This document shows, one piece after another, positions 15,759-37,127 of a DNA stretch of 64,000 bases; within the stretch, counting starts at the first letter, position 1, and each line of letters starts with the position of its first letter. The notes beneath the pieces are model-generated. The model was not told where the DNA came from, searched no databases, and worked only from the letters and a program-made list of their open reading frames with translations. The translations under genes and the position numbers were made by a program. Origin of the DNA: Macrolepiota albuminosa (taxonomy: Eukaryota > Basidiomycota > Agaricomycetes > Agaricales > Agaricaceae); the NCBI GenBank assembly GCA_027475525.1, contig JAMWFC010000052.1, forward strand, positions 558,001 to 622,000. Direction: 5' to 3'.

Positions 15759-18700
15759 CTAATCATTTTCTTCTTCTTCAACTAAAGTCGGCAAGTCTTC
15801 ATCGTCCAATAACTCGGTTTCTTCAAGTTCTCGTAGCTTGGCGGTGTCGATATCTAGCGCTTCAAGCGGCAAGTCAATGTGTTCTCTGGCGAGATACGGC
15901 AATAGGCGAAAGGCGGCAACAGGTCGGTGTAGGACTGAACCATCTAATTCACAGAGCACGTAAGCGCCTCCACGGTTACGAGAGATAACTACCAAAGGTC
16001 CTAGATAGCGCGGGCGCATTTTCTTGTTGTAGGAGGTCTCGATTTTGGAGTTGCGCATAAGCACTAGCGCTCCTCTCGGGAAGTTGTAATCCTTGATAGT
16101 GGCGCCATGCTCGGTTTCGAATCGCAGGGCTGCTTGGCGACGGGCGCTAAAGACTACCTCGTGGAGTCGCTCTAAATCTTCCTTCCTTCGCTGGAGATCA
16201 ATAGCTCGTCTGGCGATAAGATCGGTAGTCGCTAAGATGCTGTTGGGTGCTGGTTGAAGGTAGGTCGCTTCTATGATGTCGGCAGGGAGTAAAGGATGGG
16301 TGCCAGTAGCCGCATAGTAAGGAGAACAACCCATGCGCTTACGAATGGTAACTCTTTCCGACCAAAACACTGAATACGTCGCCTCACTCCAACGCGACTC
16401 GTCGCCATCGACTGCCTTGAAGAGCGCTTGCCGCACGTCAAAGTGTGGCCTCTCTACCAAGCCATTGGCGCGTTTGTTGTAGCCTGATACTCGAATATGA
16501 TGTATATTGTATTTCTTGGCGAGGTAAGTTAGCGCTTTGATGATAGGCGCACCGTTATCCGTGACGATTTCTCTTAGCGCTCCCCAACGGCAGATGACGT
16601 CTTCAAATAACCACTTGGCGACCGCCTCGGTATTTTCTCTTTGCAGCATGCGAAACTCAGGCCAGTGGATTAGCGAGCAACGACCTTGAATGATGTACTT
16701 GTAGCGACCAGATTTAGGCATATGCATGGTGTCGACGTAGATTTTGCTGAAGAGGGGAGCTGGCGTTGCAACGGTTGGCGGTATGAGCACTTGGCGCGTT
16801 TGTTGGATTTGGCAGAGGTGGCAAGTCCTGATGTACCAGGCGATGTCGGCACTAGCGTGTGGCCACCAGAATCGTTCTAGCAGAGAGGCTCGGGTAGCGT
16901 ACAGGCCTCTATGTCCTAGCTCGTCATGCATGGCGCGCAAGACTCGTAAGCGACTTTCTGGCTTGATAATCAGTTTGTGAGCGCCATCGCGATTCCGTCG
17001 CCAAAGTCGGTTGTCGGTAAAGAAGAAGCGGGTGGCATAACGGATAAAGGTCGCGTATTGTTCGTCGGTAAGGTCTGGGGGTCGCTTAAGGTCTTGTAGC
17101 CATTGTTCAACGAGTAACAAGCGACTGTCTTCCGCCTTTGCCTTGGCGGATCGGGGGGTCGCTTAAGGTCTTGTAGCCATTGTTCAACGAGTAACAAGCG
17201 ACTGTCTTCCGCCTTTGCCTTGGCGGATCGGGGAACGCATTGTAGGTCAGGTTTTTGCTGTCCTCTCTTAGCGGATGGGGTTCTTGTACGATTTTCACTG
17301 GTGGTGAGTCCTGACTGCAAATGCTTGCCGTGTAGAATGTGAGGGGAGCGCTAAAAGTCTCGGGGCGGTAAGGGACGATAGGATGTAAAAGGATGCTGGC
17401 AGGCTGTTGCCGTCGTAGTAAGGGAATTGGCTGTTGAATGAGGTGTACGAATCCATGTAAGCGGTCAATCCAGTCCTCGAAATCGCTATCAGCCTGTGGG
17501 TCCACTGCCGGGTCGCCAGGCTGCCGTGGTCGCCTAGAAAGTCCATCTGGTCCGTGGAAAGAGCTCTTGACGTGTACCAACTCAAAGTGAAACATGAGGA
17601 TGGCAACTACCCACCGGTTCATGCTAGCGGATGGCTGGATATCGGGATTCTGCAGCATGCCTTTGATGTACCTAGCGTCGACTTCAACAATCAGATTCCG
17701 CACGCCAATCAAATACATCTTTAGCGACCGGAAGGCTTTGAAGAGTCCATAGAGCTCTAGCTTAGGCTGGCTGTAGCGAGACTCTCTGTCGTTTAGCGTG
17801 ATAGACCCAAAGCGGTTGTAGCGTCGCTGTTTCCGATTGTCGCTAAGGCACTGGCACAGGAAGTAGCCAACGGCAATGTACGAGGTATCCACCGCCAAGA
17901 TGACAGGGTCGGCAGAGCTATAGTCGATTGGAACTAGGGGCTTGGCGTCTTGTAAGGCCTTTACTAAGTCTCGTTGTGCGGTAACCTGGTCTGGCCCAAA
18001 TTCGAAGGGCTCGTTGGCGCGGGTGAGTCGGTTAAGAGCATGTGCGCGATGGGCAAAGTTCTTGACGAATATCCTGAGAACGCCAACGGTGCCAAGAAAG
18101 GCGCGAACTTCAGATAAGTCGCGGCAAGGACCCCATCGCTCTAGGAGTGCTAAGCGAGACTCGTCGGGAACGCGACCGTCGGGAGTGCAGATGTGACCAA
18201 GTATTTTGAACCTTGGCGCGCAAAGGAGAAGTTTGTGACCGCTAAACGTACCACCGCTATACTTCATACGCTGGAGAACTCGATTGAGCAGCTGGAAAAA
18301 GTCCCATAGCGCTAAGCGAATGTTGGGGTTCTCGGGATGGGTTGCCGGTAAGCCGTTTACGAGTCGCCAGTCTTTGGGGCCTTTGACGCCAACGTCATCA
18401 ATGAAGCTAAGGACATTATGCGGTATTTCGGGTTGGAGGATGAAGGTGATGTCGTCATGGAATATGGGGACTGAGTTTGTCCAGCCCATCGGTAAGGTGA
18501 CTAGGCGCAGCGCGCCAAACGGAGTTTGAAAGGTGGTGAGGTCACGGGAAGAGGGGTGTATCAAGCGTTCATCGTAGCCAACGTAGAGATCAAGGGTGGC
18601 GCCACAGATGCGCCCGGCAAAGGACTCGGCAAAGTGGTCAGGGAATGGCGGTACGCCAGAGTGTCGTATGGTGACTCTATTCAGCGGTTCAAGACTGTGG

Positions 18701-24340: not shown

Positions 24341-25063
24341 AGGAGTGGTCTTGTCATCGTCCACTAGCTCAGTTTCTTCAAGTTCTCGTAGTTTAGCCGT
24401 GTCAATGTCCAGCGCCGACAAAGGTAATGAAATGTGTTCATGCACTAGGTAGGGAATAAGCCGAAACGCCACTACTGGTCAATGTAAAACTGAGCCGTCC
24501 AACTCACAGAGTACATAGGCGCCTCCCCTATTGCGGGAAACCACTATTAGGGGTCCCAGATACCAAGGTCGCATCTTTTTGTTATGGGTAACTTCAATCT
24601 TTGAGTTGCGCATTAGTACAAGGGCACCAGAGGTGAAGTTGTAGTCTCGAATCGTGGTGCTATGCTCGCTTTCAAACCATAGCGCAGCTTGTTGTCTAGC
24701 CTGAAATACTACCTCGTGTAAGCGCTCAAGATCCTCCATGTGTCGTTGTAAGTCTATAGCGCATCTAGCGATCATGTTGGTAGAGGATAGTATTGAGTTC
24801 GGTGGGGGTTGTAAGTACGTCGCTTCCACCACGTCCACAGGTAGCAAGGGGTGAGTGCCAGTCACCGCATAGTAGGGAGAGCAGCCCATCCTCTTTCGTA
24901 TGGTAACCCGCTCCGACCAGAAGACCAAATAAGTCGCCTCACTCCAGCGACTTTTGTCACCATCGACCGCCTTGAATAGCGCCTGTCGAACATCGAAATG
25001 AGGCCTTTCTATGATTCCATTGGCGCGTTTATTGTATCCTGAGACTCGGATGTGTTGTATGTT
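24341..25063 (-). pseudogene. pol: element B Pol, integrase C-terminal part (decayed)
   Basis: It is homologous to 15770-16510 in element A (VFWSERVTIRKRMGCSPYY, then the YLGPLIVVSRNRGG region). A TGA replaces the Arg codon of the aligned HRPV motif at 24479. It stops abruptly at 25063, where element C is inserted, and the next codons resume at 36472-36477. Confidence 0.9.
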
Positions 25064-25254
25064 TGAAACAAAGTCAAGTATATGGTTAGCCTTACGGTCA
25101 CACCAACAGAACCAGATCGATATTCGATTCTAGTACTACGAGTATGACAGTAAAATTGGCTGCCTTATGTAAGGCAGCCAGCATGTATGTAGAGTAATAA
25201 TAATTAACTAATATAAGTATATATTAATTAATTAACTAGGTATAATCTGTTACA
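25064..25254 (-). mobile_element. element C, 3' LTR (191 bp)
   Basis: Identical by eye to 36204-36394. TG...CA ends. A 10-bp perfect hairpin with a 2-base centre lies at 25158-25179 (GGCTGCCTTA / TAAGGCAGCC). The flanking ATGTT at 25059-25063 recurs at 36472-36476. Confidence 0.95.
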
Positions 25255-25446
25255 TGCCCCCCTTTGAGACTGGTAGCCAGTCTCGATGTAAGGAGGGACA
25301 CGTTTTTGTCCGGGTCACTAATTAAGTCAATGTGGAGGAGCTCTGGTCCTCCACGGCTCAAAAATGTCCAAGTCATCTGTCAAAAAATACAACGCCGACG
25401 TTAACCGACAGTATGAATTGAAAAGGAGATGAGCCGCCTACGAAAT

Positions 25447-28379
25447 TTACGCAGACGGCGGACGCGACAACTCGCGAGCCGTATCAATCCTCATCTCAGT
25501 GTCGACGTTAACCGAGGATGATGAGGCGACGGGACCCGACGATGTTGAGGCTGTAGGAGCCTGAACCGACGTGGAGGGGTGTGACGGAGAGGGGGGATAG
25601 GGCCCGTGTCGAGAGCGGCGTTGCCATAAGTCTCGACGGTTGGGGTTCATCCCCACCGGATAATATAGTCCACTTTCAAGGTACTCATGACCTTGATCGG
25701 ATTCGCGGGCGAGCAGTGCGTGGAGACGAATCATATCATCGTCCGTGGGCAATCGCCAATTGTCCCACCGTGTGATGGCTGCGGGCTCTCCATAGAGGTC
25801 CAGTCGACGATGACGTTCATCGTCGACCTCACGGAACTGGTCAATGGAGGCTGTGGCCGCAAGGAATTGGTTCTCGAGGTAGACCACGCCGAAGGTATAG
25901 GCGTGGTCCACCCACTCGATAGGTACGCGGTTGGCTATCATAGCCCGTAGCACGTCAGCATCGGTGATGTTGACGGCATTAGCCACGTAGAAGTACGGGG
26001 GTCGGAACTGGACGTCAGTCCAGCTCATGGGTGCGAATGGGTTGCTGGGGTTGGCGGCGTCGTAATCCGTGACCGCCTCACGATACAGCCCAGGACGCGC
26101 AAGAATCAAGGCTAACAGCCTTGCAAAGCGTCCCCGAGCTCTTCCCGAAGGGGACAGTCCACGCGTCAGGGCATGGCCCAGCAGAGTGCGCCAGTGAATG
26201 TGGTAAGCCCGATCCACTGCAATGCCGTATACCGAATTCATCATCCCTGGTCGACAGAAGTAGAGAACGTTCTGCGCCAGCTTGTCCAGATCGAAGGTGA
26301 AACGTACACCTTCGGAATCAAACCCGGAAAGCGTAAAAAACGGTCTTCCGGCTCGGTCCTTCCATCGCAGGTACCCGTCTGGGGTCGGCATGACCGCGAT
26401 GTTCATGTGGTGGGATGATAGATCCAGAGGGGGCGAAATGTGCTCGTACTCTGGTGAACACACCAGAGTCATCGTCCTATCCCTCACCGACGTATAATAG
26501 TTGATACTGATGCGCTGAAACTCGCGCAACAGATAATAGGCCTCAGTGCGCAAAGACACTGACGTAAACTTGTTCTGCGAAAGCTCATAAAGCTTTCGCA
26601 ACTGCTGGGGATTCATCGGGAATCCCCTCGGTACCACTCGATTCAACTCCTTCGAGGTATGGTGATACCTCTCTCCCTTTTCCTCCTCGTGCGCCTTCGC
26701 GGCCAAGGCTTCGTCGCTCACAAATACTGTATTGGTGAGCTGGGAGTAATAGAAATGGCGGTCGAGTGCCCCGCCGTAGAACCAGTTGGACCGCTCCACC
26801 AGCGTCCCGCTGACAAACACCCCGAGGCCATCAGGAATACGGCCTGTGGCCTGCTCCACCCGGTCTTTATCGACCTTTGCCTGCCGGGCGGCCTCGTGCT
26901 TCCTCCGAGCCTCCTTCTTGCGTTTCTTGTCTAAACGCACTCGGCGTTTAGCAGGGGTTTCTCCTTCCGAGGGGGTCTCATCTGATGACTCCCCATAATC
27001 ACTCCCGTCGCTCGGTTCGTTCAGACCGAGCGCAGCCAACGTTAATAGTCGCCCTTCGACCTCGGCGTCCGTCCTCGTGTCCTTTATGGGGACCGCGGAC
27101 GCATACACCCTCAGTGGTGCCTCGAACTGCACCACTGCTCCAAACCGCATCACAACTCTGTCTGCTCCTCGCGGAACATCTGCTCCAAACTCCACTTCCG
27201 ACAGGACCACCTCATCCTGCCGCTTCGCCCCTGACTGCTGGGAGGGCGCATGTGTTGACGAGGACAGTCCTCGTAAACTGTTGTCAACCTCCATGAGCTC
27301 GTCATGTAACTCGGCCGGGGTCGGAGTGAGCTCTCCCGATTCCCGCACCTCAACTTCTGGTCCTGCATCTCACGCTCTGAGGCGTTTTGCCTCAGGTTGC
27401 TCCAACGACGACGACGGACGCTTCTTCATAGCGTTCGTAAATGTCTTAATAGTATTGTCGTTTTTGCCTCAGGTTGCTCCAACGACGACGACGGACGCTT
27501 CTTCATAGCGTTCGTAAATGTCTTAATAGTATTGTCGTTACGCTGCTGCAGCATAACAATCTCATCGAGCAGGCCCGTAATCACCACCTGAGCCACCGGA
27601 TCCGCCAAAAACGCGGACTCCGGTGGTACTCGCTGGCCGGCAGATATGAGGCGTCGCCAGACTGCCTCTGCCTGAGGGTCCAACACCTCCGACGGCGTTC
27701 CGATCTCTTTTCCTTTTCCTTTCTCCGCGTACGAGAAGCGCCGCGGAGATGGTGCATGACGGGGTGACGGAGAGGCCCGTCGAGGCGGTGTTCGAGGTCG
27801 GGGTTGACCTCGATTTTGCGTCCTCGCTGCCAGCTCATCCCGTCTGTGCCCAACCATTTCCCGAGGCCCGCCTCCTTGTGCCCCGGTACTCCTCGGAGGC
27901 AATCGCCTCCAGTCTCTTCTATACGTCTCTCGCGGGGGCGGCGTCCTTTCTCGCTGTTGTCGAGGTTGCACCACCTCGCCCTTTACTTGCTGTTGACGCC
28001 CCGCGTCATCGTCCACGTCCATGGGTGCTACCTGTGGCGCAGTTAGTGCTTTCTCATCCGAAAGGAGTGTACTTGCACTCTGGGTCTGCGTCTGCTGCAT
28101 CAGCATTGGCATTCCCCACATAACCTGTCCCCCCATCTGCTGTCCAGGACCAGCTGGTCCTGGGAAATACGGCATCTGGAAGAACGGCGGGTAAAACTGC
28201 GGAGGTTGTCCAAATTGGGCTGGGTTCTGCCCAAACTGGGACACCACTGGATACGACGCCACAGTCGGCGTCGTTACAGACTGCTGAACGTTTTGCTGGG
28301 GGCGATCCCCCCCTCCTCCAGAACCCTGTGGGTTCTGAGGCTGTTGCTCACTGGTCGTACGCTGGTAAGGGTACGACAT
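25447..28379 (-). CDS. element C ORF3: large extra ORF downstream of pol, unknown function
   Basis: Two open stretches, 28379-27426 and 27348-25447, are one gene split by the 77-bp duplication at 27385-27538. Even with one copy removed, an in-frame TGA (27370-27372, followed by GAT) remains, so it is either a nonsense mutation or a further stop. The N-terminal ~170 residues are Pro/Gln/Gly/Met-rich and probably disordered; then comes an Arg/Pro-rich segment with RS-like repeats. The C-terminal ~630 residues begin acidic, pass a Lys/Arg cluster (KRRVRLDKKRKKEARRK) and become a globular domain with many aromatics (FYGGALDRHFYY, YLRWKDRAGRPFF). The position is that of env in retroviruses, but I see no signal peptide or membrane segment. 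It is the same strand as pol. Function unknown. Confidence 0.75.
27385..27538. repeat. 77-bp tandem duplication in ORF3 of element C (probable artefact)
   Basis: An exact 77-bp duplication that causes the apparent split of ORF3. Confidence 0.88.
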
Positions 28380-28610
28380 GGTATCACAAAAAACGTCGAC
28401 GTGTCGGTGGGAAAAAACACATTAAATTCCCCATCATCAGGTTACATAACCTGATCCGACCCTCTCCTCCGCATCATGATCCACGTTATCTCATCATATA
28501 GATCAACTTCCATCTTATCTATCTGAACAACTTGTGATCCGATCAGGATCAGATACTCGGTCGATCCGAGATCCGACTGATCCGGCCTTCATCTTATCAC
28601 TGCCATCAAT
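28380..28610 (-). other. spacer between pol and ORF3 of element C
   Basis: About 230 bp with no coding signal. It separates the TAG of pol from the ATG of ORF3 and is rich in ATC/GATC-like short repeats. It may carry a promoter or an internal entry element for ORF3. Confidence 0.45.
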
Positions 28611-31600
28611 CTAAGCACGTGAGCGCTTAGCAAGCTGATTTGGGCGCTTCACGCCCTGCAGTTCTAAGTACCGATCCAATGCTGCCAACTTGGCACATGT
28701 GTGGTACGACTCCCATGTCGTATCACCTGCACTCCACCGCACCTCGAATTCGAGGTGCGTTCCTTCCTGCCACCGATGGCCCAGGATGTCCTCGACGAAC
28801 CACTCTTGTTCGTCACTGGCACCGAAATCATATGGCTCGGGAGTCACCCGATTAGGGAACATAGCATCATCGTTTGCGTTATACCGCCTAAGTAACGATA
28901 CGTGGAACTTAGGCACAATCCGACGTGCTTGCAGAGCTGCAGGCAGCTCCAGGACATAGTTCGACGTGCTTGGTTCCGCGACCAAGACTCGGTATGGTCC
29001 AATGAACTTTGGACACAGCTTTCTCGCTCTTCCTTTCGGGAGATTCAAGTTCTCGCGACCAAGACTCGGTATGGTCCAATGAACTTTGGACACAGCTTTC
29101 TCGCTCTTCCTTTTGGGAGATTCAAGTTCTCCGTCGACAGGTACACTAACGTCCCGGGCGTTAGTTCTGGTTCCTCACTTCGCCTATCATTTGCATGTCG
29201 TGCCTGTACAACACGCGCGGCAATGATTGCATTGTGTGCATTGGCTAGATTCGCCAATGCTTGCTGTGCAAAGTCCTTTACCCCTTTGTGAACGGCTCCG
29301 TCTGCCTTTAGTTCGCGCAGCATGGAGGGCATGTACCCTCCGTTGAGCTCGAACGGTGCATATTTCGTGGTCTCAGACACGCTCGCGTTGATTGCGAACT
29401 CAGTTAGCGGTATTCTATCCACCCAGTCGCGTTGGTCCGGTCGGACCACCGTACGAAAGATCTGGGCAATACTTCTATTCGCTCGCTCTGTCTGTCCATC
29501 CGTCTGCGGATGAAACGAGGTAGACATGAGTAGTTTAGCTCCCAGGAGCTTGTGAAGCTTTTGCCACCAGTGAGATGTAAACTTGGTGTCTCGATCGCTC
29601 ACGATCGAACTTGGAAGGCCATGTAGCCTTACAATCTCCTTCAAGTAGATCCAGGATAACGCGGACGCCGTAATGGTAGTGTGCACTGGTATCAAATGTA
29701 CCATACTCGTCATTCGACAAATGACCACCCAAAGGTAGTTATACCCTTTGGACTCGGGGAATGGGCCAACAAAGTCCATTCCAATGGAGTCCCATGGCTT
29801 CGTCGGGATGGGCAGGGAATGCAACTTCCCTGCTGGCTTCCTATTGCTGGTCTTCGACCGCTGGCAGGCCTCGCAGGTCTGGCAGAACTGCATCACTTCT
29901 TTCTGCATCTGAGGCCACCAGTACCACTGCCTCAGGTATTCTAGTGTTTTGTTGGTTCCAAAGTGACCAACAACCTCATGAGCTTGAGTGACAACCTTAG
30001 TGAGCAGTGCTCGGTCGCGTGGTAAGCACACCACGTCGTGTCCTCGAACATTCGTTATCCGGACTAGTCCGTTCTCATCCACGCTGAAGCGTGGATGGGC
30101 GTCTGCGTTCTGCCGGATTTCCGTGTAGAACGCATCGCGTCTATAGCCCCTCATCACCTTCTGGAGGTACTCATCGGTTTGAGGGACAGGAGGGTTACGA
30201 TACTCTCCTGTAGGCAATAACGCGTCAGCGAGCGTCATGTCGTGGCTATCCGGTCCACGACTGCTTCCAGTCTCACTTTGGTGTGGCCTTGTCGCCTCCT
30301 TTTGCTGGGCCTGCTCCAGTTGCTCAGCCTCTATGTCGCGGCCCTCTTGCCGCTCTTGCAGTCGTCGACTGCGTCGCAGTTCGGTAGCTTGCATAGCCCG
30401 AAGCTCGACCACATGCTCCTTCACCTCTCTGTAGCGATGATACGGAAGATCATCGCCATGAGGATCAATACGAATGTCCGCATCGACATACTCATGCGTA
30501 TCATGGTGTTCGCCTGCTCTATCGCTCTCGAAGTACCTCGAGAGACAGTCCGCCACCTTGTTCAGTTCGCCTTTGACATATGTGATGTCAAAGTTGTAGC
30601 GAGACATATAGTCAATCCACCGGCGTTGCCAGGGGGACAACGTTGCTTGAGTCTTGAAGAACTCAAGTGCTTTATGGTCGGTAATGATGTGGATCTTATA
30701 TCCCATCAATTTATCTTCCCACTTAAGTAGCGCCTCAAGTATCGCCAGCGTTTCAAGCTCATGGACCGCATAATTCTGTTGGGCCAAGGTGAACTTCCTT
30801 GACATGAACCCTGCAGGCCGACAATTTTGCCATGAGCTTCCCTGGCCGTACATTGCACCTACTCCGGTCTTTGAGGCATCACAGATGAGCCAAATCGGCT
30901 CATCACGTCGGGGATCTATGGGACGAATGACTGGTGTCTTTGAGCAGATCCTCTTGATCATCTCAAAACATCGTTGATGTATAGGTCTCCATATAAATGG
31001 AGCACCATTCTGAGTAATAGACATCAACGGTCCAGTATATGCTGTTATATCAGGCAGACAATTGCCGATATAGTTCACTAGTCCCACGAATCTCTGCACA
31101 TCATTATAGTTACGAGGCACACGCCATTCGCGTATGCGATCGATTTTGTCCTGGTCAGGGTGAATACCCTGACTATCAATCTTGTGTCTGAGGCAATCCA
31201 CTGTCTCGGCATATAGTTCGCATTTCTTCCACTTGAGGTATAGCAAGTTAGACCTCAGTCGCTCGAAAATGACACGAAGATGCTCTTCGTGTTCTTCGAT
31301 TGAATCGGAGTATATAAATATGTCGTCCAAATAGATATGGACAAACCTCCCAATAACATCCCGGAAGATGGAGGTCATCAACCTCTGAAATGTCGCAGGA
31401 GCATTGCAATCTCCTATCTGCATAATGTTGCTCACATATGTTCCCGTGATTGACGAGAACACTGTCTTTGGGATATCAGACAAGCGAATTCTCACTTGCT
31501 CATACGCATCCGTCAGGTCAATTTTCAACCTGAACTTTGCTCTCGCCACATCTTCTCGAATCACTTCCTGATCCGGAAGTGGCGTCACGTCCTTCACGGT

Positions 31601-32563
31601 GTTGTCATTGCGTTGGCGTGCATCCAACGCCGTCCTTAATGTACCATCTTTCTTCGGAATGCACAATAGCGGAGCAGCTTGGGAGGCTGGTTGAGCCTCC
31701 CACCAGTGGGCTCTCAGGTACCGATTGGTCTTGTCTCGGAGCTGCTGCTGCAGCGCCATTGGACATCGAGGCAAATGATATTTATACACCTTATTCTCAT
31801 CAATAAGGTTGATTTCATGGTTGACCTCTCGCCAAGGAGGTAACTCCTCCTTGGTTCCGTTCAGAATATCCGCAAATTCCTGCTGCCACTGCAATCGTAG
31901 GTCCGGAATGTCCTCCTTTGTAAAACCACTAGTTTTACCTTTGCCCTTCCGGTCCACATCCTTGCCTGGGCACCCGGACAGCTTTGCTTGTACGGCTGGA
32001 CGGCCATACTTCTCTCTGAGGGCAGTAATCCTCAGCTCGCTGTCATCCGGCGTGTGCAGTCGCACAGGCACTTCCTTCTTACTTCTCCGCGACGTCACAG
32101 ATAGTCCGTCGAAGAACACCTCACTCGGCGACGATATCTCGTCGTCACTAGCCTGACGATACGACTCCTCCTTCAACGTCCATTGTGGTCCATTCCACGC
32201 ATACATCGACGCCACTAGGTCATTCCACTCAGCAGGCATTCGTGGATCAAATGCCCATTCAAATGTGGGATGAGGTACTGGTCGATCCCAGATTGACCGA
32301 TTCGTATGTGTGGAGGACGCCTCATCCTTCAACAGTCCTTGATCGTCATCATCTGTTACCAAGTCCTCAACCTTCACTCGCGACGACGTCGGTTGGCACT
32401 CTGTGCTTGCCGCATGCTGAGGCCGCTTGTCCTCAGACTTACTCTGCTTTTCACACTTCATCTCCTTCATCTCGGGGCTCTCCCCCCTCTTCAGAGTACG
32501 TTCGTACTCTACAGCTTCGCTTTCCAGCATCAACACCGCCGGACTATCCATGGGCAAGCTCAC
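28611..32563 (-). CDS. pol: element C Pol: RT, RNase H, integrase, chromodomain
   Basis: Frames 32563-29045 and 29093-28611 are one gene interrupted by the 77-bp duplication at 28981-29134. RT: FVHIYLDDIFIYSD carries the YLDD box. RNase H: EPIWLICDASKTGVGA to VADCLSR. Integrase: an HHCC site (HFGTNKTLEYL and CQTCEACQRS), the DDE residues in SIGMDFVGPFP, IVSDRDTKF and DGQTERANRS, then the GPY/F module CPKFIGPYRVL. The end reads as a chromodomain (EWFVEDILGHRW to EFEVRWSAGDTTWE), which in chromoviruses targets integration to marked chromatin. It continues in frame from the protease after a UGA-CUA stop at 32624-32626. Confidence 0.93.
28981..29134. repeat. 77-bp tandem duplication in pol of element C (probable artefact)
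   Basis: A 77-bp offset duplication with one mismatch near the end; it shifts the frame before the chromodomain. Confidence 0.82.
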
Positions 32564-32617
32564 ACGAGCTTGCTCTTCATCCTCTCCATCCTCAACCGTA
32601 GGCGCTTTCTTGCCTCC

Positions 32618-32626
32618 GTCTAGTCA
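32618..32626 (-). promoter_or_regulatory. candidate readthrough stop codon (UGA CUA GAC) between protease and pol
   Basis: On the - strand CAC TGA CTA GAC is in frame with both protease and pol. UGA followed by CUA is the best-known leaky stop context in fungi and other eukaryotes. Confidence 0.7.
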
Positions 32627-33420
32627 GTGTCGCCTGACTAGCACCTTCTTCTCTGTGGCGCGGTGTCGATGGAGACGTCCATCTCCATCATCTATGGTCA
32701 CTCGCACTGCAGGGATAGTGGTGCCATCCACCACTATCTCATTCTTCTTGAAGTTCAGCAGAACGTTGTGCTTCCTCATATACGGCGTGCCTATAATCAT
32801 GTCGTAACGATCAAAGTTTGCCACATCAAGGTACTCCCTCGTCCTTGATTTTGCACAGACGATACTCGCCTGCGTACCAAACTGTACCGCAGCTCGGCTG
32901 CCCACAGTACCCAATTGAAGGAGTAGTGGCTCCTTCAACTCACTGACAGAAATATCGTGCACTTGGCAAAACTGGGGTGTCACCCCAGTAGTCGTACTAC
33001 CTGAATCCCACAATGTCCACGCCTTGTGGCCATTCACCTCAACGTACGACGCCAGGCACTCCTTATCCTTGCGCTTCAACACCGGTCTCACCAGCTTCTC
33101 TGGAGCCTTGCGAAGGTGTACCTTATACACCTTAACATTGGCTGCTCCAACGGGACGGTCTAATGCGCTGGCTTCTCTGGAGCCTTGCGAAGGTGTACCT
33201 TATACACCTTAACATTGGCTGCTCCAACGGGACGGTCTAATGCGCTGACCAGGTAGTCCGTCAGAGCTCCCATGAACTCTGAGTCTGACTCCCGGGCGTA
33301 ATAATCGTTGTCGTATATGTCAACCTCCACGTATTCATCATCCGACAACTCCTCTACCACAGAGGCGTTTTCATCCTCTGGTGCATCAGGTATGAGGTTC
33401 TCCACCTCATCGTCTTCCAT
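32624..33420 (-). CDS. pro: element C aspartic protease region
   Basis: It continues gag in one frame once the 77-bp duplications at 33094 and 33371 are allowed for. The active site is in WTLWDSGSTTTG (DSG), and the C-terminal hallmark is MIIGTPYMRKHNVLL. An acidic segment rich in Asp/Glu precedes it. It ends with TGA at 32624-32626; the same frame continues 21 codons later with the Met at 32563 of pol. The stop is followed by CTA. Confidence 0.88.
33094..33247. repeat. 77-bp tandem duplication (probable artefact)
   Basis: An exact 77-bp duplication between gag and protease of element C. Confidence 0.88.
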
Positions 33421-33524
33421 ATCAGGTTCATTCCCGGAGTCTATTTTTCATCCTCTGGTGCATCAGGTATGAGGTTCTCCACCTCATCGTCTTCCATATC
33501 AGGTTCATTCCCGGAGTCTATCCC
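33371..33524. repeat. 77-bp tandem duplication (probable artefact)
   Basis: An exact 77-bp duplication at the acidic segment after the zinc knuckle of element C. Confidence 0.88.
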
Positions 33525-36053
33525 TTCAGCATCCGGGATAGCAGTGTGCGCCGCCCGTACATAGGCATGTGGCTTACCCATAGGCTTTCCACCACCCACT
33601 GGGCATGCATTCGCAAAATGCCCAGGCCGACCACATTTGAAGCACTTACTCGCCACGAAAGGGCGAGCTGCTTCATACTTCGGTGGCCCATTCGGTGTCG
33701 GCAATCTAGCCTCACCAGCAGCCTGATGCGGTCGAACACCCTCTCGGCGTGGACCTCTCTGAGCATCCTGTGCCGGTGCATCCCTACGGTCCCCCGGCCG
33801 GTCGCTCCGGAAGCGTCGGTCTTGCCGAGGTGCTGCTCTTACCACGAACCTCGGGTTCGTATTGCCCACCATCTCCTTTCGACAAGCCCAGAAGGTGCCT
33901 ACCTTCCGAGGCTCGGCCTTGTTTACCGATCGAACCTTTGAGCTATGTAGCCCAAAGTGTCGCGCTATTTTGTGGGCTTGCTCGTAGCGCAATGCATGCG
34001 CTACGAATTCCTCGACGGTATTTACTTCGGGCGATAGTCCGTCATCACAAATGAGGGACTCTCTCATTGCGTCAGGTATCCCCCGCAGGAAGGTATCAAT
34101 CATTACCCAGTTATCTGGGTAAATAGACATATTCTGTGCGTGGTCTATCAAGGTATCATAGAAACCTTGAACACCTAATCGTTCGGTGTAGGAGGTTGCA
34201 ATGAATGCCTCCCGAGCATCCTGCATGGTGGATGCACTCACAAACCGGTTATATAATTCAAGGATTACATCCTTGAACGTCCATTGCTGTCGTGCACGAT
34301 TGTAGTGCAAGACATGATGACGGAACCAGGCTTTGGCTGGTCCGTCCAGGAACTCCGGGAGCACAAACACACGTTCTCGATCCAGACGATCCCCCCCATA
34401 CTGGCATGCTGCCAGATGGTTGCACACATCCATCGTCCAATTTTCCAAGTCGCTAAACTTGGACTCCCCTCTGTACGGTTGGATGTGTTTTGACTCCGCC
34501 TTACGCGGTTTGATACCTTCGGGCAGGCGTAATGCTACGCCTACCGCATCGTCAATTATACTACTGAGGCGCTGGTGCATATTCTCAGTATACACCTTTG
34601 TCGCCTCAGTTATTCCAGGCGTTTTATTTCTACCTTCCGCTGGAGGTACCACGGAGAATGCACGTACAGGTCGGTGACCTGTGTAGTGCACTTTCTCTGC
34701 ACCCTTCCAATGCAGGGGGCTCTCCTGTCCCCCTAGCTCTTCTATCACCTGCTTTCCAGGGCCTCGGCTCGGATCCGCCGTGGGCGGGTCCCCTCTCCTG
34801 GTGTCAGGCTGTCGTGTCCGTTGGACATATTGCCTTCTCATCTCGTCGATGGGCGTTATCCCATCGAATACAATTCCCTGGTCGTCTATCCAGGAGTGCC
34901 CCTGGCGCTTCAGGTCTTGGTTCTGCATGCGCTGATAAGCTACTCTCTCCGCAAACTTATCAGCCAACGGCACTTGATTTGTCAGTGGAACATTCTCCAC
35001 TGATTCCTGTTTTGTGTGAGGGTGCCTTGGCTCCCCCGCTTCGTGTAGGTTGCTATCTACCACAGGTATGGTAGACACCGATTCAGTTGTCGACAGAGGT
35101 CTCCTTCGCTGACCTCTGAATACATTCTGTCTTTGTGCTGCAGCAAACCTGGCAGCGAACTGCTCGTCAGACTCTCCTGCTTGCTGGGGCGCATATATAT
35201 TGCTCATTGCCTCTTCCAGATGGGGAGACAACTCTGGCTTTGCCACCGGGGGTATATTCGGGATCAAGTTTGCCCCCTCTGGAGTCGAGGCAGCTGATCC
35301 TCGATTAGCCTTGCGATACATATATGCTTGGGCTTCCAGCTCAAGAATCTGAACGTACAATGTAATGTATTCAACAGTATTCAATTGAGGTACATTTTCA
35401 CCTCTAGCCTGTATCAACCGTATGTGCTTCAGTACATACAGTCCTAGTCAAGCACACGTGGTATCCTTTGTAATGCTAGGGTATCTCTTCCATAGCATAG
35501 CACACTGAACCTGAAGGGTGGACTCACTCCGTCCACTCTCTTCGTCGTCAGACGTTTCATCTTCCCAATGTACTGCCGGCGTTCTTTGCTCAGGAATTGT
35601 CGTTTCCTGCGGCACTCCGGCTCCCTGCTGACGTTGCATCATGGGAGTGGATTCAGTTGGAACTCTCCAACTGCCCGCCTCTTGCCTCGGCATCTTCCCC
35701 AGAAAGTACGACGAAGGTCTGCGACCTTCGATAGGTCCCTGAGCACTACTCCTGCTCTGGGATTGCCGCCCTGACCTCCCAATCTGCATGGAAGATTCAT
35801 GATCCCTGCCGAACTGCTGTTCCAGGTCTTCCACACCTGCCCCTGGTCTCGCTGCACCGCTCAGCACAGCTGTCGGCCGCACTTCACTCCATTGCGTCCC
35901 CCCTGGCATTCCCTGAGGCTGCCGGGAAGGCTCGGCCTCTGTATATTCTGACCCGGGACGACCCGGGTCAGTCACCGCAGATTGAGGATATGCCAACGAC
36001 TGGTCGATGGTCTCACCATCGCGTGTCGGTTCAGTAGATTGATTGGTCTCCAT
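33441..36053 (-). CDS. gag: element C Gag, with an in-frame UGA-CUA after 201 codons
   Basis: Two open stretches in the same frame, 36053-35448 (201 codons) and about 35417-33441. Only TGA at 35448-35450 separates them. The first part is polar (Gln/Pro/Ser/Glu-rich) with no visible domain. The second has a Ty3-type capsid region (a TWK/WTFKDVILELYNRFV-like helix near the middle, then a dipped NAREA-like segment AREAFIATSYTERLGVQGFY) and one CCHC knuckle CFKCGRPGHFANAC (C-X2-C-X4-H-X4-C). The leader from the LTR to ATG is about 150 nt. If the stop is absolute, capsid would have to start at an internal Met; if leaky, two gag forms result. The TGA is followed by CTA G, as at the protease/pol boundary. 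Confidence 0.85.
35442..35450 (-). promoter_or_regulatory. candidate readthrough stop codon (UGA CUA G) inside gag
   Basis: The - strand reads GCT TGA CTA GGA in frame with the coding on both sides. It has the same six-base context as the second stop in this element. Confidence 0.7.
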
Positions 36054-36180
36054 CCAATCAAGTGTTGCTACGTCTCGTTTTACCCGGAAGTGTGCGTCAA
36101 AGAAGTTGATACACTGTTCGATGCAATCACAGTCTAGGCTATCAGTCTAGACCCGTAGTCTTTGTCCGTAGTATCAGAAT

Positions 36181-36197
36181 TGAACCCGAAAGGTTCA
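36181..36197. promoter_or_regulatory. small hairpin in the primer-site position of element C
   Basis: TGAACCCGAAAGGTTCA forms a 6-bp stem with a 5-base loop, 6 bases from the 5' LTR. No TGG-type primer site follows the LTR, so a tRNA primer is not obvious. Self-priming, known for the related Tf1/sushi chromoviruses, is one possibility. Confidence 0.35.
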
Positions 36198-36203
36198 AAA
36201 AAG

Positions 36204-36394
36204 TGAAACAAAGTCAAGTATATGGTTAGCCTTACGGTCACACCAACAGAACCAGATCGATATTCGATTCTAGTACTACGAGTATGACAGTAAAATTGGC
36301 TGCCTTATGTAAGGCAGCCAGCATGTATGTAGAGTAATAATAATTAACTAATATAAGTATATATTAATTAATTAACTAGGTATAATCTGTTACA
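36204..36394 (-). mobile_element. element C, 5' LTR (191 bp)
   Basis: Identical by eye to 25064-25254. AT-rich 3' part and the 10-bp hairpin are conserved. Confidence 0.95.
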
Positions 36395-36471
36395 CCAGCA
36401 TGTATGTAGAGTAATAATAATTAACTAATATAAGTATATATTAATTAATTAACTAGGTATAATCTGTTACA
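36318..36471. repeat. 77-bp tandem duplication at the LTR end (probable artefact)
   Basis: The last 77 bases of the element C LTR occur twice; the second copy abuts the ATGTT target duplication. Confidence 0.9.
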
Positions 36472-36541: not shown

Positions 36542-36695
36542 GAAGGGCTCCCCATTGGCAGATAACGTCCTCAAAGAGCCACTTAGCTATAGCGTCTGTA
36601 TTTTCTCGCTGGAGCATAGAAGGGCTCCCCATTGGCAGATAACGTCCTCAAAGAGCCACTTAGCTATAGCGTCTGTATTTTCTCGCTGGAGCATA
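36542..36695. repeat. 77-bp tandem duplication (probable artefact)
   Basis: An exact 77-bp duplication in the integrase of element B. Confidence 0.88.
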
Positions 36696-37127
36696 CGAAA
36701 CTCCGGCCAATGTACCAAGGAACACCTTCCTTGAATGATATACTTGTAGCGCCCTGACTTAGGCATGTGCATGGTGTCAATATATATTTTTCTGAATAAC
36801 GGCGCTGGAGTCGCTACTGTTGGGGGAATCAGAACCTGACGTGTCTGCTGGATTTGACAGAGATGACAAGTGCAAATATACCACGCAATATCGGCGCTAA
36901 CTTGCAGCCACCAAAAGCGCTCCAAAAGGTTTGCCCTTGTCGCGTAGAGTCCTCAGTGCTCCAAGTCATCATGCATAGCGCGTAGAATCCTAACTCAATT
37001 ATCCGGTTTAATTACTAGCTTATGGGTGCCATCTCTATTTCATCGCCAAAGTCGGTCTTCCACTATAAAGAAAGTCGTCGCATATCGAATGAAGGTGGCG
37101 TATTCCGTATCCGTAAGGTCTGATGGT

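Follow-up and report, generated by a model that had tools for sequence, protein, structure and literature searches.

In five fission-yeast chromoviruses Gag and Pol are separated by an in-frame TGA that has CTA or CTG next, and C, CT and CTAG have been cited as following contexts that favour readthrough (PMC10085805). Tj1 without its stop shows virtually no integration (PMC4600332), and with these cases the principle of readthrough is already known in chromoviruses. UGA CU(A) is sufficient for readthrough in Ustilago maydis and also works in HeLa cells (PMC4207609); all published systems are cited here from excerpts of the reports. We analysed a 64,000-nt window of the agaric Macrolepiota albuminosa (assembly GCA_027475525.1, contig JAMWFC010000052.1, 558,001-622,000 of the forward strand) containing a long terminal repeat (LTR) retrotransposon of chromovirus type, element C, which reads on the minus strand in the order 5′ LTR, gag, protease, TGA, reverse transcriptase (RT)-RNase H-integrase, a third open reading frame (ORF3) and 3′ LTR. 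An earlier note on this DNA had reported two in-frame TGA codons, each with CTAG next, and both are present in the sequence: one in gag (stop 1, 35450-35448) and one between protease and pol (stop 2, 32626-32624). Comparison with copies sought in the 100-Mb, 129-contig host assembly separated the two sites, stop 2 being common to nearly all loci read and stop 1 not. On this sequence comparison we consider it highly likely that stop 2 is a programmed UGA readthrough stop and that stop 1 has no part in it, being a CpG mutation of a minority of copies.

Scoring of the best 40 of 153 candidates from the genome search yielded 30 near loci, the window included, all of which were read. For stop 2 we added 26 further loci (L061-L086), mostly picked for divergence, down to ~78 % identity, giving 56 in total. 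TGA-CTAG was found at stop 2 in 30/30 near loci and in 54 of the 56 overall, the exceptions being L070 with CGA-CTAG and L083 with TGA-TTAG. The six diverged loci chosen by similarity alone (L081-L086) all have TGA and five of them CTAG, while a genome scan with a pattern that contained CTAG and left the stop free identified 91 places, with TGA in 90. The pol frame is in phase with protease, as the earlier note had stated, and the reading frame runs on through the stop; among near loci it is open for 574 codons upstream in 7/30 and for at least 557 codons downstream in 10/30, both lengths being the fetched limit for nearly all. Analysis of the 24 codons after stop 2 in L061-L086 identified 151 third-position changes against 117 in first and second positions together (151/268), with a naive site-corrected nonsynonymous/synonymous ratio of 0.29; nearby, the ratio is 0.41 in the 60 codons before and 0.48 in the next 60 after. 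Predicted pol proteins of many relatives start near the same place, with some starting further in among the relatives listed, although these shared starts are weak evidence because gene callers choose them.

Readthrough at stop 2 is the best explanation given the conservation of the stop and its context, the phase, the coding constraint and the known leakiness of UGA-CUA. Most ribosomes would end at the UGA and release Gag-protease, while a minority, aided by CUAG, would insert an amino acid there and translate on, without a shift of frame, to reverse transcriptase and integrase. Readthrough would in this way set the Gag:Pol ratio, its occurrence, rate and role being proposed here from sequence only.

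A number of observations weigh against this reading. Twenty of the 56 loci (L061-L080) were chosen by a pattern that contained CTAG, with the stop free and ≤ 3 mismatches allowed, and in only two of the 56 (L018 and L025) does the open frame reach the end of the fetched sequence both upstream and downstream of stop 2, the others being interrupted somewhere. The nonsynonymous/synonymous ratio rises to 0.73 in the 24 codons before stop 2 in L061-L086, and after the stop it is 0.65 in the near loci, where the changes are few (12 synonymous and 26 nonsynonymous codons). TGACTAG shows 2 changes in 385 cells, yet ranks only 79th of 2569 heptamers (best 4 %; median 6.5 % per base). The fold computed just 3′ of stop 2 is not significant (z -1.16). 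Three relatives (P0076, P0091 and P0110; 53-54 % identity, 1608-2018 amino acids) are long enough for fused gag-pol proteins, and therefore not all relatives need this protease/pol break. DNA of relatives in other species was sought in viral contigs and in contigs of prokaryote genomes, and none was found there. Finally, in the excerpted report on Tca2 of Candida albicans, the gag-UGA-pol junction failed to direct readthrough in a reporter and showed promoter activity (PMC2194720).

The Tca2 result would fit an alternative in which stop 2 is the true end and pol has a separate message or is translated after re-initiation at an ATG further down, and an in-frame ATG does lie 25 codons past stop 2 in 29/30 near loci. 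However, the 24 codons preceding that ATG are under coding constraint in the diverged loci, and in these the first ATG moves from codon 9 to codon 52, or is missing, while TGA-CTAG stays. We regard a true end at stop 2 as unlikely.

Stop 2 also lies in the 3′ arm of a perfect inverted repeat, which might itself be the recoding signal. Its helix is paired in 99.0 % of cells and the repeat is perfect at 78 places in the genome, against 0 for a reversed control pattern. It is however one of about eighty such repeats in element C, and a helix that has never changed on both sides is silent on covariation. As a ribosome decoding stop 2 would be expected to cover both arms and melt the helix, the hairpin is probably not the readthrough signal, and we give the idea little credence. 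L063 and L081 carry a hairpin with 7-nt arms just downstream of stop 2 (window position 32619 on), at a place where another short stem is seen in the near copies. The case for a stem 3′ of stop 2 that stimulates readthrough was considered and found weak.

The preferred reading of stop 2 as a programmed stop does not extend to stop 1. Of the near loci, 21 have CGA at stop 1, 4 have CGG, one has CAA and 4, with the window among them, have TGA, so that 26/30 have a sense codon, and the CTAG that follows is identical in 30/30. A CpG-type change turns CGA into either TGA or CAA, and transitions of this type make up 1774 of the 3973 differences that set the window apart from loci with at least 95 % identity to it. 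Over 31 mostly-CGA codons TGA occupies 162 of 1625 cells (10.0 %); stop 1, with 4/31 (12.9 %), ranks eighth. When whole fetched loci are compared, each of the four copies with TGA has a CGA copy as its nearest relative, which argues for separate mutations. Against this, the closest locus to the window over 451 bp around stop 1 is L032 (99.6 %), which also has TGA, while L033, with CGA, differs from the window no more than L032 does over that distance, the stop itself excepted. In 22/30 loci, 19 of them with a sense codon, a frame that starts with an ATG 201 codons upstream reaches the stop 1 codon without interruption, and the supposed N-terminal extension of gag is therefore the normal gag start. 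Stop 1 is a private or minority C-to-T change at the CpG of a CGA codon, found at a rate usual for such codons. The earlier note had argued that two random nonsense mutations would not be expected to share this context; the odds against are real, yet at stop 1 the sharing is a coincidence in conserved coding sequence, and at stop 2 alone is the context more than chance. It had also held that a sense codon in other copies would mark a private mutation, and the aligned copies show stop 1 private and stop 2 shared. That both stops are programmed, one extending the N-terminus of gag and the other setting the gag-pro to pol ratio, has in its favour the same TGA-CTAG at two sites and the finding that, of 187 further codons within one transition of a stop in the scanned stretches (gag in two pieces, and pol), not one has CTA next, but the prevalence of sense codons, the common CGA-codon rate of TGA and the open frame in 19/26 sense loci lead us to reject readthrough at stop 1 and make this proposal extremely improbable.

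The repeat around stop 2 belongs to an unexpected excess of short hairpins in element C, the majority of them within coding sequence. Counting perfect inverted repeats with loops of 3-12 nt, we identified 81 in the element body with arms of at least 7 nt and 49 with arms of at least 8 nt, against means of 5.6 and 1.8 in five first-order simulations, with no comparable excess in the two remaining parts of the window (arms ≥ 7; 21 against 13.6 and 13 against 15.2 simulated). The list for the whole element, LTRs included, holds 86, three of them double-counted through the 77-nt duplications described below. Comparison with 30 synonymous-codon shuffles per coding piece gave 25 hairpins in pol against 1.93 (highest shuffle 6), 13 in gag against 1.17, 4 in the first gag piece against 0.47, 5 in the protease piece against 0.33, and 6 and 14 in the two ORF3 pieces against 0.53 and 1.57, the second of which, as cut, has two in-frame stops. 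Together the six pieces hold 67 hairpins against 6.0 in the shuffles, an approximately 11-fold excess, while two ORFs of a neighbouring element show none (0 against 0.67 and 1 against 1.27). Across 84 loci, repeats with arms of at least 8 nt number 4.15 per kb over 258,672 bp of sequence matching the element and 0.67 per kb over 31,292 bp without a match, figures to be read knowing that the loci partly overlap and that some of the non-matching stretches are element sequence that has diverged.

In 16 diverged loci 195 hairpins are centred as in the window, 92 lie elsewhere and 15 could not be placed, from which it follows that old hairpins persist while others are lineage-specific. Covariation was examined for eight hairpins in an alignment of 51 sequences (50 distinct), five of 55 loci (L027, L063, L068, L073 and L079) having been set aside as matching the stretch only partly. 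Paired changes on both sides of a helix occur in 42 cells, where shuffling gives a mean of 16.9 (sd 3.0) and none of 500 shuffles reaches this number, and the covariation score is 0.081 against 0.068. For the same eight hairpins the number of pairs with two-sided change is not raised (11 against 8.7, with 63 of 500 shuffles as high), nor is that of pair types (39 against 41.0), and three of the helices are paired in merely 80-87 % of cells. Selection on the sense RNA should favour G.U pairs. Distinct single changes outside CpG gave 67 G.U and 74 A.C (expected ratio 0.79), or 14 and 20 when seen in at least 3 loci, a test to which the many decaying copies add symmetric noise. Folding over 73 windows is equally stable in sense (z -2.24) and antisense (z -2.34), with three control stretches between -0.02 and 0.37. 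The lack of a G.U preference disfavours sense-RNA selection and makes a cause at the DNA level, or one symmetric between strands, likelier; with the antisense result, we lowered sense-RNA structure as a candidate.

Fold-back template switching is known to create repeats of this kind (PMC8794818). Double changes that perfect a stem fell in one arm in 9 cases and in two arms in 9, not all independent, leaving one-step template switching neither favoured nor disfavoured. It is quite possible, and we put this forward tentatively, that a DNA-level or strand-symmetric process, rather than sense-RNA selection, continually turns the coding sequence of this element lineage into short perfect inverted repeats, the protein being kept by synonymous choice and stop 2 having been drawn into one repeat. 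Candidate processes would be fold-back copying at the reverse transcription step or selection acting on the cDNA while it is single-stranded. If the enrichment occurs in other species, it would be a constraint of an unusual kind for a coding genome and offer a natural way of deciding whether fold-back copying or selection builds hairpins.

The element as assembled is affected by tandem duplications of period 77, of which we identified 12 in the window, one with a mismatch, and 63 runs in 296,866 bases of fetched loci, which overlap, so that some runs are counted twice. A scan of periods 30-159 in the fetched loci gave, besides 77, one case only, of period 36. Two exact duplications (33368-33521 and 33094-33247) separate gag from protease and interrupt the frame of the window there; overall, the duplications of this period in element C break the frames of gag-protease, of pol near its end and of ORF3, and as a result of them the 5′ LTR begins with a doubled stretch. 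The recurrence of one fixed length everywhere points to an assembly artefact, probably overlaps that the assembler failed to merge, and we rejected a biological origin. The earlier note had called the element young, citing its identical LTRs and perfect target duplication. The 191-nt direct repeats (25064-25254 and 36204-36394) are indeed 100 % identical; given the assembly artefact, this identity is weak evidence of youth and unfit for dating this copy.

The assignment of element C as chromovirus-type, also made in the earlier note, was borne out. Pfam domains lie in the order PF00098, PF08284, PF00078, PF17917, PF17921, PF00665, all above cut-off, that is CCHC, protease and RT-RNase H before integrase, and a target duplication ATGTT flanks the element on either side, a 5-bp duplication with TG...CA LTRs being characteristic of Ty3/Gypsy chromoviruses. 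The chromodomain match in the window (E 3.4e-04) scores 20.9 bits against a cut-off of 25.1, and relative P0004 reaches 25.4 bits, above cut-off. Among the best 120 of 1477 pol relatives the named organisms are agaricomycetes, for example Mycena, Phanerochaete, Trametes and Agrocybe. The relatives include pol proteins at 59-69 % identity. A Pfam search of ORF3 gave no family above cut-off, and its larger piece has 4 database matches, all from Termitomyces sp. T32_za158 (63-67 % identity). Inspection by eye of 36160-36203, beside the 5′ LTR, revealed no TGG-type tRNA primer site, and a short hairpin, TTGAACC-TTTCG-GGTTCAA, is present there instead. From ORF translations, element C apparently sits inside another, different Ty3-type element, within its integrase region (24479-25129 and 36587-36952); a homologue of that element lies at 15759-17162. 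Coordinates are collected in Table 1.

Table 1 Coordinates of element C, its coding parts and stops, and the period-77 duplications of the window
Feature	Position	Strand	Basis
Element C, chromovirus-type LTR retrotransposon, as assembled, with 77-nt duplications	25064..36471	-	direct repeats, ATGTT target duplication, Pfam domains
3′ LTR, 191 nt, start TGTAAC, end GTTTCA	25064..25254	-	direct repeat
5′ LTR, first 77 nt doubled (assembly duplication)	36204..36471	-	direct repeat and period-77 scan
gag, first 201 codons	35451..36053	-	joined to remaining gag in 19/26 loci with sense codon at stop 1
Stop 1, TGA, CpG-type mutation of CGA codon, then conserved CTAG	35448..35450	-	copy comparison
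gag with CCHC zinc knuckle	33522..35447	-	PF00098 3.4e-06; PF03732 0.0099, below cut-off
Protease region ending at stop 2, includes part of one 77-nt duplication	32627..33199	-	PF08284 8.4e-07
Stop 2, TGA then CTAG, conserved stop, protease/pol	32624..32626	-	copy comparison
Perfect inverted repeat, arms 8 nt, loop 6 nt; 3′ arm contains stop 2 and CTAG	32620..32641	-	inverted-repeat listing
pol (RT, RNase H, integrase), cut near 3′ end by 77-nt duplication 28977-29130 (one mismatch)	29045..32623	-	Pfam domains
Integrase C-terminus, SH3_Tf2-1 and weak chromodomain match, split from pol by duplication	28614..29174	-	PF24626 2.2e-10; PF00385 3.4e-04, below cut-off
ORF3, third reading frame, cut by 77-nt duplication 27385-27538	25447..28379	-	translation; database matches
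Element body with many short perfect inverted repeats (arms of 7-11 nt, loops of 3-12 nt)	25255..36280	-	comparison with simulations
Period-77 duplications (window positions)	3289, 3486, 17077, 19546, 27385, 28977, 33094, 33368, 36318, 36542, 37128, 39433		tandem-repeat scan

In the literature searched, judged by titles and the openings of abstracts, we found no case of UGA readthrough in a basidiomycete retrotransposon and no hairpin enrichment in coding retrotransposons like that of element C. A likeness to the hairpins is provided by the coding palindromes of Nematomorpha mitochondria, perfect inverted repeats within coding sequence with the protein kept, although these are long, up to 284 bp, and mitochondrial (PMC6649704), whereas element C has dozens with arms of 7-11 nt in a nuclear retrotransposon. 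The creation and repair of hairpins by template switching similarly acts at the DNA level and both generates and preserves perfect stems, although it has been shown for RNA genes (PMC8794818) and the one-arm comparison in element C was neutral.

With regard to stop 2, Tca2 likewise has a UGA between coding parts, in its case gag and pol, with pol made from the gag-pol RNA; it differs in having a potential pseudoknot 3′ of the stop, and it was the junction alone that gave no reporter readthrough (PMC2194720, in excerpt). The fungal and animal genes with UGA-CU(A) readthrough share the stop and the CUA, often with G next, but are cellular genes with C-terminal extensions (PMC4207609). Also close are the Tf1/sushi chromoviruses Tj1, Tcry1 and Tosmo1-3, Ty3/Gypsy elements of chromovirus type in which coding parts are likewise divided by an in-frame TGA with CTA or CTG after it, an arrangement interpreted as programmed readthrough. 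As described in the excerpted reports, their stop splits Gag from PR-RT-IN, whereas that of element C follows the protease; they have a strictly conserved octamer GAA TGA CT, whereas the codon before stop 2 is CAC or CAT; and, unlike them, element C has a third ORF after pol (PMC10085805, PMC4600332). The copies of element C show cleanly, on a worked example, how a programmed stop can be distinguished from a decayed codon that happens to have the same context. Stop 2 is very probably the known type of readthrough in a different position, which would carry the fission-yeast chromovirus strategy over to an agaric and, if true, make protease as abundant as Gag.

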